NCBI RefSeq assembly: GCF_021390195.1
Contig: NZ_CP090003.1
Coordinates: forward strand, 3,803,501-3,867,500
Direction of reading: 5' to 3'
Length of the DNA: 64,000 nucleotides
From: Flagellimonas sp. CMM7
GTDB taxonomy: Bacteria; Bacteroidota; Bacteroidia; Flavobacteriales; Flavobacteriaceae
The notes beneath the pieces were generated by a model that saw only the letters and a program-made list of their open reading frames with translations, was not told the origin of the DNA and did no database searches. How positions within the stretch are numbered: position 1 is the stretch's first letter; every line of letters starts with the position of its first letter. Made by a program: the position numbers and the translations under genes. Positions 49,354-56,387 of the stretch are shown piece by piece.

Positions 49354-49848
49354 TTAGTTTGGTGAATTTAGTCCCATTTTATTTCCTTCCGTATCTAGAA
49401 ATAAGGCAAAAAAACCACTTTCATCAGCGTGTGCGGTTTTGGGCACCATTATTTTACCCCCGTTTTTTTCAATTTTATCAAGTATAATTTGAAGATCATC
49501 TCCGCCATTCAAGTATATGGTTACCCCATCGGATGATGGCTTGTAACCTTCTCCTTTTATTATAATCCCCGTGACCAATTGCTCTTCGTATGGAAATATT
49601 CCCATTTCCATACCGGGCATTTCCATTACTTCAATGTTAATGTCTAATATGCGTTGATAAAAATTGACAGCCCGTGAAACATCCGTTGCCGGGATTTCAA
49701 AAAGAGAAACAAAGCTTTTCATATCATTCTGTGTTTTTTCTTGATTGGAATCTGTTTTTTGTACTTCTGGACTAACTTTATTCTTATTGGTACAAGACAG
49801 AAGTGCAAAAGCCACTATTATAGTAGTGCGTAGTAAAATGCTATTCAT
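49354..49848 (-). CDS. VOC-superfamily lipoprotein
   Basis: This 164-residue protein has a lipoprotein signal ending in LLSC (C19), a linker, and a glyoxalase/VOC domain from about residue 45 (FEIPATDVSRAVNFYQRIL, ending FALFLDTEGNKMGL). The role may be detoxification or binding of a small molecule at the membrane; no metal ligands are certain. It lies 72 bases downstream of the AraC-type gene. Confidence 0.85.
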   Translation of the reverse strand: MNSILLRTTIIVAFALLSCTNKNKVSPEVQKTDSNQEKTQNDMKSFVSLFEIPATDVSRAVNFYQRILDINIEVMEMPGMEMGIFPYEEQLVTGIIIKGEGYKPSSDGVTIYLNGGDDLQIILDKIEKNGGKIMVPKTAHADESGFFALFLDTEGNKMGLNSPN

Positions 49849-52132: not shown

Positions 52133-52909
52133 TTATGCTGTTTCTTTCTTTTCACTAAGGTACTTCCAATACCGTTTTGGCACATGTTGTGTATGTAATT
52201 TTCTATTGATTCGAGATTTAATATTGGTGCTTTTAAAATAGTCGTTCCATAAGGTTTGGTAATCATATTCATCACTTAAAAAGGCATCACTTTTATGGAT
52301 CTTATTAAAGTGTACCTCTTTCAAATTGAGCGATATCAATTCTACATGCTCCATATTATAGTAAATTCCGTACTTACGCTTTACATCATAGATTAACCAT
52401 TGCTGGTCAGCATACCTATTCCTAAAATGTTTTGAAATCAATGGTAAAACATCAAAGTCAGGCTCAATATTCGCAAAGTAAATATCATCCTTGGTCAATT
52501 GAAAACGAACAAAGGCTTCCATTCTGTGTTTTTCCCGACCTACGGAAAGTGCCAATTGGCTAATGCGAAGTACAACACCATCTGAATAGTCCGTTTGTTT
52601 TGTTCCTTTGCCGATCATCAGCTTTTGAATATAGGTGTATAGCGTAAGTTCTATACCATCTACCTCACTTAAAAACGCAAAGTATACATTGGTAATAGCA
52701 TTATGGCTTGTGTTGCGTATACCGTTCCATACGCGTTTAGCCTTTTCCACATTTGTGAAAATTGTCTCTGTTTCGGAGAAAAGCCCGTTTTGGCCTTTGG
52801 TATTACGTTGAACATCCACCACATCTATTTTTTCTTCAAAGGCAACAAAGACCGTGGTAAGAAAGCCATTAAAGCTTCCGTCGTAAATGAGTGTTTTTGA
52901 GTTTTTCAT
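52133..52909 (-). CDS. Putative DNA-metabolism protein, TIGR03915 family
   Basis: This 258-residue protein matches the TIGR03915/DUF4130 pattern by its start (LIYDGSFNGFLTTVF), the HRMEAFVRFQLTKD segment and the WLIYDVKRKYGIYY segment. The family is associated with the radical SAM TIGR03916 partner and believed, without proof of reaction, to act in DNA repair or base modification. The partner gene lies 220 bases upstream on the same strand and the AlkD-like gene follows directly. Confidence 0.88.
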   Translation of the reverse strand: MKNSKTLIYDGSFNGFLTTVFVAFEEKIDVVDVQRNTKGQNGLFSETETIFTNVEKAKRVWNGIRNTSHNAITNVYFAFLSEVDGIELTLYTYIQKLMIGKGTKQTDYSDGVVLRISQLALSVGREKHRMEAFVRFQLTKDDIYFANIEPDFDVLPLISKHFRNRYADQQWLIYDVKRKYGIYYNMEHVELISLNLKEVHFNKIHKSDAFLSDEYDYQTLWNDYFKSTNIKSRINRKLHTQHVPKRYWKYLSEKKETA

Positions 52910-52919
52910 TAGTACTGAA

Positions 52920-53072
52920 TTAGAGGTGAAATGAAGTAATATGTTTTTTTAATGTGGTCAGTGATTTCTTTGCTCTGCTTTTGAAAACAATGAAATCATA
53001 TCCTAGACTTAAGATGGTATCTCGGCTACGCTCTATAAAGTCTTCGTCTTTTTGGGTTTGTAAGGTGTTCAT
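52920..53072 (-). CDS. Candidate 50-residue protein in the repair operon
   Basis: An ATG at 53072 opens a 50-codon frame ending at TAA 52920-52922, 10 bases before the TIGR03915 start. The product is basic and helical (MNTLQTQKDEDFIERSR, then ending KKHITSFHL). Position between the radical SAM gene and TIGR03915 suggests it may be translated in the same transcript. It could also be chance; no family is known. Confidence 0.4.
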   Translation of the reverse strand: MNTLQTQKDEDFIERSRDTILSLGYDFIVFKSRAKKSLTTLKKHITSFHL

Positions 53073-53129: not shown

Positions 53130-54392
53130 TTAATTAAACAATGATAATTGTGTACTATACTGATTCCGAAACTTTCCAGAGGATTGTTGTAGAATCATTC
53201 CTTTAATTTTTTCCGCATCCAAATCCTTACGCTCCCAATTTCTAGAATCGCAAATCATAAAATACTTGGCACGGTTGAGGGCCACTCCAATTTTCTTGAG
53301 GTGGTCCCAGTTCAATTTTCGAAACTTACGGGCATTTAAAATCTTCCCAACAGATCGCATGCCCATTCCTGGAATACGAACGAGCATACGCTTATCTGCA
53401 CTATTGACATCCACAGGAAAATGATGCATGTTCCGTAATGCCCAAGAAAGTTTTGGGTCTACATCTATATCTAAATTTGGATAATCATTGTTCAAGATTT
53501 CATTCACGGCAAAACCATAAAAACGCAACAACCAATCTGTCTGGTACAATCTATTTTCCCGCAACATGGGTACTTGCGAACCAATAGAAGGTAAGCGGCT
53601 ATCTTTCGCAACGGGCACGTAACCAGAATAATACACCCGTTTCATATTGTACTGTTTGTAGTAATAGGTGGCAGAATACATAATGTCCTTATCCGTTTCA
53701 CCTGTTGCGCCCACAATCATTTGAGTACTTTGCCCTGCCGGAGCATATTTTGGGGTACTTTTAATGATTTTTTGCTCATTTTTAAAACGAATCAATTCGT
53801 TTTTGACCTTTAACATAGGTTTGGTAAAATCCTCATGCTTTTTATCAGGAGCTAAAAGTTTAAGGCCTGAGATGGTAGGGATTTCAATATTTACTGAAAG
53901 TCGGTCTGCATATAGTCCTGCCTCATACATTAACTCATCACTAGCATCAGGAATGGATTTTAAGTGGATGTATCCATTAAAGTTCTCTTCTAGCCGTAAT
54001 TTTTTGGCTACTGCAATGAGGCGTTCCATGGTATAGTCGGCATTTTTGAAAATACCCGAACTTAAAAACAACCCTTCAATATAATTTCTTCTATAAAAGT
54101 TGATGGTTAAATCCACTACCTCTTGGATTTTGAAGGCAGCTCGTTTTACATCATTGCTCTTACGGGTGACACAGTAGGCGCAATCAAAAATGCAATGGTT
54201 TGTCAACAGTATTTTTAAAAGGGACACGCATCTGCCATCTTCGGTATAGCTATGACATATACCCATTTTACTGGCATTGCCAAGCCCTTTGTCCTTATTG
54301 GACCTATCACTACCGCTGCTGGCACAAGAAACATCGTATTTGGCAGCATCGGCCAAAACATTCAATTTTTCTTGTATTCGATTAAAGCCCAT
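53130..54392 (-). CDS. Radical SAM putative DNA modification/repair protein, TIGR03916
   Basis: This 420-residue protein has the radical SAM cluster cysteines in NHCIFDCAYCVTR (CX3CX2C). It has the TIM-barrel features around FLSSGIFKNADYTMER and the C-terminal helix-hairpin-helix-like segment VRIPGMGMRSVGKIL, which suggests DNA binding. Known as a partner of TIGR03915; the proposed reaction on DNA is unproven. It is divergent from the LexA-like repressor gene, with 99 bases between starts that contain its promoter and operators. Confidence 0.92.
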   Translation of the reverse strand: MGFNRIQEKLNVLADAAKYDVSCASSGSDRSNKDKGLGNASKMGICHSYTEDGRCVSLLKILLTNHCIFDCAYCVTRKSNDVKRAAFKIQEVVDLTINFYRRNYIEGLFLSSGIFKNADYTMERLIAVAKKLRLEENFNGYIHLKSIPDASDELMYEAGLYADRLSVNIEIPTISGLKLLAPDKKHEDFTKPMLKVKNELIRFKNEQKIIKSTPKYAPAGQSTQMIVGATGETDKDIMYSATYYYKQYNMKRVYYSGYVPVAKDSRLPSIGSQVPMLRENRLYQTDWLLRFYGFAVNEILNNDYPNLDIDVDPKLSWALRNMHHFPVDVNSADKRMLVRIPGMGMRSVGKILNARKFRKLNWDHLKKIGVALNRAKYFMICDSRNWERKDLDAEKIKGMILQQSSGKFRNQYSTQLSLFN

Positions 54393-54410: not shown

Positions 54411-54418
54411 CAAAATTA
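54411..54418 (-). promoter_or_regulatory. -7 box of the radical SAM gene
   Basis: The minus strand reads TAATTTTG, an exact TAnnTTTG match, 18 bases upstream of the start codon at 54392. No clear -33 TTG is found, so activity may depend on more than the core promoter. Operator 1 begins 2 bases upstream of the box. Confidence 0.6.
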
Positions 54419-54419
54419 T

Positions 54420-54430
54420 GGAAATATTCC
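54420..54430. promoter_or_regulatory. Operator palindrome 1
   Basis: GGAAATATTCC, an 11-bp perfect palindrome around a central base. It is 18 bases from operator 2 and lies right behind the radical SAM -7 box. Confidence 0.7.
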
Positions 54431-54437
54431 TAAAAAT

Positions 54438-54448
54438 GGAAATATTCC
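54438..54448. promoter_or_regulatory. Operator palindrome 2
   Basis: GGAAATATTCC, identical to operator 1. It lies where the -33 region of the radical SAM promoter should be. Confidence 0.7.
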
Positions 54449-54458
54449 AAATTATTTT

Positions 54459-54487
54459 TTGGAAACATTCCAAATTTGCTATATTTG
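54459..54487 (+). promoter_or_regulatory. Promoter of the LexA-like repressor gene
   Basis: TTG at 54459-54461 is followed after 18 bases by TATATTTG at 54480-54487, a very good -33/-7 match. The transcript would start near the ATG at 54492, so the mRNA is almost leaderless. Confidence 0.75.
54461..54471. promoter_or_regulatory. Operator palindrome 3
   Basis: GGAAACATTCC differs from operators 1 and 2 at one base. It overlaps the last base of the repressor gene's TTG box and occupies its spacer, which fits negative autoregulation. Confidence 0.7.
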
Positions 54488-54491
54488 AAAT

Positions 54492-55253
54492 ATGGAGAAT
54501 GAGTTAACACTAAAACGGTTTATTGATATTAGAAGAGAATTGGGACATACGCAGGCAGAATTTGCCACGTTATTGGGCATTTCCAGTACCACGGCAGATA
54601 TTGAAAGGGGACGCACCAAATTATCAGGTAAAGTAGTAGCTGAATTGCTGAAACAATTCAATATTAATCCACTTTGGTTGTTTGGTGAAAGCGAAGAAAA
54701 GCATTTGGAAACTTCCAGAACCAGTGTAATTCCGAAAGTGGTAACCGTAGATAGTGCTGATAATGACAATATGGTTTTGGTAAATGCGAAAGCCGCCGCT
54801 GGATATCCCCAAAATATTGCAGATACTAGTTGGTACCATCAATTGCCGGCTTTTGATTTGCCTATTCCCGAGTTTAGAAATGCCACTTACAGAGGTTTTC
54901 AGGTGGAAGGGGAAAGTATGTTGCCCAATCTAAGGCCTAACGATTGGGTGTTGGCCAAATCTGTTGAACATATTGATCACATAAGCGCCAATAAAATGTA
55001 TGTGGTAGTGTTACAAGATGCGGTATTGGTCAAGAAGATTGAAAAGCGTCCAAACTCCAATAACATTACATTGGTTTCTTTGAATGAAACCTATCCGCCA
55101 TATGACATAAAGCCCTTTCAGATACAAGAAATTTGGGAAGTGAGCAGTAAATTGACCTTTAATGTCGATGCTACTACTGACACGGGACTTTTACGACAAC
55201 TTCATCAATCTATGGAAGAGTTAAAACAGCAGATGGGAAGTGTAAAAAACTAG
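54492..55253 (+). CDS. LexA-like S24-peptidase transcriptional repressor
   Basis: This 253-residue regulator has an N-terminal XRE helix-turn-helix (about residues 8-62, LGHTQAEFATLLGISSTTAD). Its C-terminal S24 domain has an Ala103-Gly104 cleavage site (KAAAGYP), the nucleophile Ser142 in VEGESMLPN, and a lysine at 181 or 182 in AVLVKKIEK. These are the residues needed for RecA-stimulated self-cleavage. With three palindromes in front of it and a divergent repair gene, it most likely represses the repair operon and itself until DNA damage. It is not called lexA because the HTH is XRE-type. Confidence 0.9.
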   Translation: MENELTLKRFIDIRRELGHTQAEFATLLGISSTTADIERGRTKLSGKVVAELLKQFNINPLWLFGESEEKHLETSRTSVIPKVVTVDSADNDNMVLVNAKAAAGYPQNIADTSWYHQLPAFDLPIPEFRNATYRGFQVEGESMLPNLRPNDWVLAKSVEHIDHISANKMYVVVLQDAVLVKKIEKRPNSNNITLVSLNETYPPYDIKPFQIQEIWEVSSKLTFNVDATTDTGLLRQLHQSMEELKQQMGSVKN

Positions 55254-55313: not shown

Positions 55314-56387
55314 GTGAAAAAGCTACTTTTAATTGCACTCTTTTTGAGTAATTTTTCATTTTCACTTGCCCAAGTAGAAAGGGACACCTTGTTGGTCGGC
55401 TATACATCGGCCGCTCCATTTATTATTCAAGAAGGAGAACTGTTGGAAGGTATCAATGTGTGGTTGTGGAAACGAGTGGCTGAACAACTGGACTTGGAAT
55501 ACAAAATGGTTCCCATGGATTTTTCCAAGATGTTAGATTCCTTAAAACAGGGAAATATTGATGTTAGTATTAATCCGTTGACCATCACGGGAAAACGCAG
55601 TAAACATATAGAGTTTACGCATTCTTTTTTTGCTTCTCACTCCACAGTAGCTGTTGCTGAAACATCATCGATTCAGAAAATAAGGAGTTTTTTGGATGCT
55701 TTTTTACACATTAATTTTCTTAGGGGATTTCTGCTTCTCTTCTTTATATTACTCTTTTTCGGCACATTGATCTGGCTTTTTGAAAAACGGGGTAATTCCG
55801 AACATTTTCGACCAAACCTTAAAGGGATATGGGATGGCCTTTGGTGGTCTGTGGTAACCGTAACCACTGTAGGCTATGGGGACAAAGCACCCAAAACACG
55901 AATGGGTAAGATTGCGGCTTTGGGCTTAATGTTTAGCGGTCTTCTGTTTGTTTCTGGGCTTACAGCTAGTATAGCATCCAGCCTTACTGTAAATCAATTA
56001 TCAAATAATTCTGATAGTTTCAGTGCTTTTAAAGAACGTAAAGTGGGTACGGTAAATAGTTCAAGTGCCAATGATTTTCTAAAAGTTCATTTTTTTAAAA
56101 AGATTTCCCTTTATGATAGTGTTATTTCAGGGTTATCGGATCTAAAAGAGGAAAAAATTGATGCTTTTATTTATGATGAACCTATTTTGCAATATCGAAT
56201 TAAAAAAGATTCTACTTTAAACGGATTGGAATTGTTGCCTATTAAATTTGATGTTCAGTTTTATGCCTTCGGAATTGTAAAAAACAATATTGAGCTAGAG
56301 CAAAAAATATCACAGGCCATTTTAGAAATAATGGAGACCCAAGAGTGGGGAGTAGTACTTGCCGAATACGGATTGAGCGAGATATGA
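55314..56387 (+). CDS. GluR0-like ligand-gated potassium channel
   Basis: This 357-residue protein has a signal peptide of about 20 residues, then a split periplasmic substrate-binding domain (about 22-125 and 232-357). Between the two parts lie a transmembrane helix (about 137-156, FLRGFLLLFFILLFFGTLIW), a pore loop with the potassium selectivity filter TVGYGD at 185-190, and a final helix (about 200-222). This is the layout of bacterial ionotropic glutamate receptors such as cyanobacterial GluR0. The start is GTG at 55314. The ligand is likely an amino acid; the IDVSINPLTIT and FIYDEPI segments line the expected pocket. It follows the repressor by 60 bases. Confidence 0.9.
   Translation: MKKLLLIALFLSNFSFSLAQVERDTLLVGYTSAAPFIIQEGELLEGINVWLWKRVAEQLDLEYKMVPMDFSKMLDSLKQGNIDVSINPLTITGKRSKHIEFTHSFFASHSTVAVAETSSIQKIRSFLDAFLHINFLRGFLLLFFILLFFGTLIWLFEKRGNSEHFRPNLKGIWDGLWWSVVTVTTVGYGDKAPKTRMGKIAALGLMFSGLLFVSGLTASIASSLTVNQLSNNSDSFSAFKERKVGTVNSSSANDFLKVHFFKKISLYDSVISGLSDLKEEKIDAFIYDEPILQYRIKKDSTLNGLELLPIKFDVQFYAFGIVKNNIELEQKISQAILEIMETQEWGVVLAEYGLSEI

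Follow-up and report, generated by a model that had tools for sequence, protein, structure and literature searches.

Non-canonical LexA proteins of Bacteroidetes were described by Sanchez-Osuna et al. (NAR 2021, PMC8565304), whose main text distinguishes two operator motifs, GGA-N5-TCC, found mainly in Flavobacteriaceae, and CTAA-N5-TTAG. For S. agarivorans, gel shifts there showed binding to GGA-N5-TCC, with a single repressor of this group attaching both to the umuD promoter and to its own, and mitomycin C was shown to induce; the predicted targets went up after damage and recA was not induced, regulation of recA being observed in several species. The regulon of the GGA-N5-TCC group, as presented in the same text, is dominated by dinB, often accompanied by a DNA polymerase III alpha gene, and also includes a SplB-type radical-SAM gene, the COG1573-COG4277 pair, umuDC and SRAP. 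It was reported that changes in the spacer had no effect in gel shifts and that several promoters carry two or more sites (PMC8565304). The string "cooperativ" is absent from the main text of that article, and Muricauda and Maribacter are not named in it. A literature search whose coverage left most subscription journals outside found no second paper on the GGA-N5-TCC regulon.

Two further kinds of regulator invite comparison. Lambdoid phage CI has several operators lying between divergent promoters, one of which is its own. HdiR and UmuDAb are like the repressor considered here in being S24 regulators that govern error-prone polymerases and are distinct from LexA. By description they are set apart from it by their separate origins and minimal regulons (PMC8565304).

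The DNA analyzed here, referred to below as the window, is a stretch of 64,000 nucleotides from Flagellimonas sp. CMM7, and all coordinates are positions within it. The repressor gene occupies positions 54492..55253 of the plus strand and encodes a 253-aa protein of the XRE-HTH/S24 type, in which a domain search finds HTH_3 (PF01381) at the N-terminus and a Peptidase_S24 domain at the C-terminus. The predicted cleavage bond A103-G104 (54798-54803, plus strand) and both members of the Ser-Lys dyad, S142 (54915-54917, plus strand) and K181 (55032-55034, plus strand), are identical across 16 aligned repressors, one of which is just 43% identical; K181 is presumably the catalytic lysine, judging from the LexA motif. 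The canonical LexA family TIGR00498 is absent among the NCBIfam matches of the repressor (E up to 0.001), and its N-terminal domain is HTH_3. No other S24 protein turned up in the 4.42-Mb genome. The repressor shares with the GGA-N5-TCC group of non-canonical LexA its HTH_3 and S24 domains, the Ala-Gly bond and the Ser-Lys dyad, the presence of the motif in its own promoter, and a regulon with dinB and the DNA polymerase III alpha gene, a radical-SAM repair gene, a COG4277 gene, umuDC and SRAP (PMC8565304, main text). We therefore infer that it belongs to this group and is probably an ortholog of S. agarivorans WP_075324850.1, an assignment that rests on motif, domains and family. Since both the repressor family and the motifs were already described in 2021 (PMC8565304), the locus is a further, well-preserved example of that system.

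The non-canonical group is characterized by an additional C-terminal helix that LexA and CI lack; for the protein of the window, a poor structure model (mean pLDDT 57.1) places a helix at residues 232-249. A search of solved structures returned a single weak match, to the chain DBP48 (E 0.003), a PADLOC search likewise yielded a single weak match, to an HTH, and the nearest phage proteins among those found are less than 30% identical to the repressor. The gene downstream of the repressor (55314-56387, plus strand) encodes a solute-binding domain fused to an ion-channel domain, in the manner of prokaryotic glutamate-receptor channels.

The repressor gene and a TIGR03916 radical-SAM gene diverge from a 99-bp gap, in which three palindromes can be read directly. 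Predicted operator site 1 (54420..54430, GGAAATATTCC) adjoins the -7 box of the radical-SAM promoter; predicted site 2 (54438..54448), with the same sequence, lies 18 bp from site 1; and predicted site 3 (54461..54471, GGAAACATTCC) follows 23 bp from site 2, within the repressor promoter. The sites are assigned to no strand, and the positions of all three are conserved. All have the form GGAA-N3-TTCC, extended at site 3 to the longer palindrome TTGGAA-N3-TTCCAA, and all match the published GGA-N5-TCC, twice as GGA-AATAT-TCC and once as GGA-AACAT-TCC. Another occurrence of GGAAATATTCC in the window, at 49592, falls within an open reading frame and was left uncounted.

The sites are closely interwoven with the promoter elements, whose -33 and -7 types we assigned from the Bacteroidetes promoter consensus. 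The -33 box of the repressor promoter, TTG, spans 54459..54461 on the plus strand and thus has its last base in common with site 3. It is followed after an 18-bp spacer, spanned by site 3, by the -7 box TATATTTG (54480..54487, plus strand), with the repressor ATG at 54492. On the other side, the -7 box of the radical-SAM promoter, TAATTTTG (54411..54418, minus strand), is one base off site 1. The first-pass annotation had put the palindromes at 54420, 54438 and 54461 between the two genes, had let site 3 overlap the last base of the TTG box and the spacer, had set the other sites next to the radical-SAM -7 box, and had the repressor keep the Ala-Gly bond, serine and lysine; on each of these points it read the DNA correctly.

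For comparison we used upstream regions of the best 80 of 394 encoded relatives in named genomes, drawn from records of Allomuricauda, Flagellimonas, Muricauda, Maribacter, Croceitalea and a few others (the named loci). The conserved part of the repressor -7 box, TAnnTTTG, lies at a distance of 19 bp, measured from where the proximal site starts, in 75/79 of these loci, and that of the opposite promoter, CAAAnnTA, 9 bp to the left of a site in 75/80. No good TTTG is visible by eye at the usual -33 distance on the radical-SAM side of the window, where a generic sigma-70 scan also gave chance level only, with 2 matches against 4.1 expected.

We consider it about 90% probable that the locus is the SOS repressor control region of the Allomuricauda/Flagellimonas group, in which a non-canonical LexA of the GGA-N5-TCC group would hold down two divergent promoters until DNA damage leads to its cleavage and the release of the repair genes. 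Very probably, this phage-like repressor binds at the three palindromes. Its dimers would occupy all three and hold down both promoters, site 3 serving the promoter of the repressor itself and sites 1 and 2 that of the TIGR03916-TIGR03915-AlkD-like genes. Upon damage, RecA filaments would stimulate self-cleavage of the repressor at A103-G104 by the S142-K181 dyad; the cleaved dimer would come off the DNA, allowing expression of the local repair genes, and, at other places in the genome, of dinB-dnaE and of a radical-SAM gene of the PA0069 type. The RecA-cleavage half of this scheme is drawn from the residues and from published relatives, and binding, cleavage and induction in the organism of the window itself are likewise expected from sequence and by analogy.

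The weakness of the -33 region on the radical-SAM side would also suit a protein that activates, rather than represses, the radical-SAM promoter through sites 1 and 2, and the 2021 authors state that they cannot exclude activation without non-cleavable mutants (PMC8565304). We judge activation very unlikely here: sites 1 and 2 occupy the -33 region and the -7 box lies right against site 1, so that a bound protein should block the polymerase, and the predicted targets in S. agarivorans rise after damage (PMC8565304).

The repair genes that the proposed repression would reach at this locus all lie on the minus strand. The TIGR03916 gene (53130..54392) encodes a 420-aa radical-SAM putative DNA modification/repair protein, matching its family with 671.1 bits (cut-off 343.5), and we take COG4277, linked to UDG, to be the same family. 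Next to it are a gene for a 258-aa putative DNA repair protein of TIGR03915/DUF4130 (52133..52909, found by family and domain search) and one for a 256-aa DNA-alkylation-repair-like protein (PF08713, 51359..52129, domain search). The latter begins 3 bases past the TIGR03915 stop and is a probable third member of the operon that the TIGR03916, TIGR03915 and AlkD-like genes would together form; a PF08713-type gene adjoins the locus in 16/80 named loci. Between the genes for TIGR03916 and TIGR03915 there is a 50-codon open frame (MNTLQTQKDEDF..., 52920-53072, minus strand).

The operator appears to be more constant than the gene it faces. The divergent neighbor of the repressor is TIGR03916 in 63 of the 80 named loci, TIGR03915 without TIGR03916 in 16, and neither in one. 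Among 40 genomes of the genus (Allomuricauda/Flagellimonas), TIGR03916 is unmatched in eight, one of them just 71% complete, and only partially matched in a ninth. In all seven of the remaining genomes without TIGR03916, TIGR03915 stands divergently beside the repressor with the sites in between. The persistence of the operator where TIGR03916 is gone links TIGR03916 and TIGR03915, a pair about which little is understood, to damage control. Some of the TIGR03915 proteins encoded beside the operator without TIGR03916 (L182, L183, L184, L187) are 43-53% identical to that of the window, and the other TIGR03915 neighbors in genomes without TIGR03916 are 73-78% identical to it. This split in divergence suggests that the arrangement of TIGR03915 beside the repressor had more than one origin.

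The palindromes themselves are conserved in relatives. GGA-N5-TCC is present upstream of the repressor in 79/80 named loci, the exception being L278. Clustered GGAWWWWWTCC sites number three in 41 loci, four in 35, two in three and none in one, so 76/80 real upstream regions have three or four; letter-shuffled 300-bp upstream regions of the 80 orthologs contain on average 0.0036. The spacings are 23-18-23 bp in 34 loci, 18-23 in 29 and 18-22 in eight, a near-fixed geometry shared by 71/80, with the other nine differing; the named loci are mutually related, so these counts do not represent independent events. The five middle bases of the array sites are strongly biased to AATAT/AATAA, whereas published gel shifts were insensitive to spacer changes (PMC8565304, main text).

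In a sample of 149 genomes of the family, repressor orthologs (E up to 1e-40) occur in 54, and the upstream regions of 50 of these, own genome included, were examined. GGA-N5-TCC is present in 47/50, or in 46/49 when the own genome is excluded and only other genera are counted; the three loci without sites are L333, L337 and L375. The other published motif, CTAA-N5-TTAG, occurs in 3/50, each time alongside GGA-N5-TCC. Gaps of 17-24 bp between neighboring sites make up 36/39 in the 20 closer genomes (at least 70% identity) and 34/41 in the 29 more distant ones. Gaps of 18-20 bp account for 18/39 and 17/41, respectively, and gaps of 22-23 bp for 18/39 and 15/41; six of the remaining gaps in the more distant genomes measure 31-32 or 41-43 bp. 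Many genera keep spacings of 18-20 and 22-23 bp in the array though the letters of the sites vary.

This near-constant spacing, unmentioned in the text of PMC8565304, distinguishes the locus from the GGA-N5-TCC group as published, and the spacings may be derivable from the supplementary tables of that article. The geometry, similar in other genera and resembling a phage operator region, is possibly new. The likeness to the operator regions of lambdoid CI is that a CI-like repressor has several operators in the interval from which two promoters diverge, its own promoter among them; the differences are the repair gene in place of a lytic regulator and the 11-bp sites spaced 18 and 22-23 bp.

A lone GGAWWWWWTCC is uninformative genome-wide, being near background: it occurs at 83 places in the own genome, and the reversed pattern at 74. 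Tandem pairs behave differently. The tight pair GGAANTANTCC-N4-16-GGAANTANTCC is found in 38/40 genus genomes, against 1/40 for the reversed control, and a looser pair 19 bp apart in 39/40, against 0/40. If the palindromes were chance products of an AT-rich gap or of a simple repeat, the near-background count of single sites would be expected, but the near absence of tandem pairs from the controls and the conservation of site positions in other genera would not, which makes such an origin negligibly probable; chance clustering of the sites is ruled out by the tandem-pair controls and the shuffled upstream regions.

The genus genomes contain 80 places with the 19-bp pair, of which 49, left from 59 rows once duplicates were removed and drawn from 33 genomes, were classified. 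Directly downstream of 46 of these 49 is dinB, a PA0069-type radical-SAM gene, umuC or an SRAP gene; the query proteins were drawn from the same loci, so this gene-class test was not blind. The own genome has two such pairs, one before dinB and one before the PA0069-type gene. With dinB matched in 33/40 genomes (E up to 1e-60) and 30 loci fetched, a site is present upstream in 29/30 and a pair 19 bp apart in 28/30; the polymerase found is DinB-like. As a practical rule, 19-bp pairs, unlike single sites, point to four kinds of DNA-repair or damage-response genes, as at 46 of the 49 classified places.

The same cannot be said of recA. It was matched in 38/40 genomes and 30 loci were fetched, one of which (L118) was set aside as its contig ends near the gene; GGA-N5-TCC is found within 330 bp upstream in 0/29 usable genus loci, nor is it found at recA of the own genome. 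We thus reject recA as a target in this genus, which departs here from classical SOS, and from the several published species of the GGA-N5-TCC group in which recA is regulated (PMC8565304).

Together these results confirm from raw sequence that an SOS repressor system of phage-like type is present in this genus of flavobacteria. recA is the usual SOS sensor gene, and its lack of a site, together with an array that is densest and tightest at the repressor locus, might point to a local stress switch by which the repressor controls itself and the divergent repair genes independently of RecA, the other sites being read by another protein. That arrangement seems to us very unlikely: no second S24 protein was found in the genome, dinB is preceded by the same motif in 29/30 loci, the cleavage residues are invariant, and the S. 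agarivorans repressor bound the umuD promoter in addition to its own (PMC8565304). The SOS control region of a genome-wide regulon is thus the reading we prefer, and it modifies what the first-pass annotation had proposed, namely a small SOS-like switch with its own non-classical operator. The SOS-like character and the operator stand, in agreement with the LexA-like repressor, the conserved sites and the published group data (PMC8565304); the small, separate switch does not, the locus being part of a described regulon. The annotation's proposed checks, conservation of the palindromes in relatives and their enrichment before repair genes, came out in its favor, and its suggestion of recA among the targets failed in this genus.

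What may be new, as observations on sequence, are the array geometry, the rule for 19-bp pairs, the lack of a recA site in the genus and the survival of the operator where TIGR03916 has been lost. The fixed spacing suggests a tentative idea, which we consider less likely than not: repressor dimers might bind cooperatively in a chain along an operator switch inherited from a phage type, its lytic gene having given way to a repair gene. The wider SOS regulon would then have arisen from two-site, 19-bp forms of this switch, and a functional target would be defined by the spacing and not by the single site. The near-constant geometry makes cooperative, phage-like binding directly testable.

The three classified pairs that do not precede one of the four gene kinds lie in G018, G019 and G025. 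In G018 and G019 (L313:2417-2695 and L314:1938-2216) a 92-aa gene starts right at the 19-bp pair, beside a gene that by eye is SRAP-like, and is a possible new member of the regulon. In the relative G025 (G025:C2:2351500-2391000; L109, L377, L378, L323) about 36.7 kb of phage-like DNA, encoding a baseplate hub protein and, in the manner of Mu-like phages, a transposase together with a DNA transposition protein, lies within the first codons of dinB and separates the SOS operator pair from this gene.
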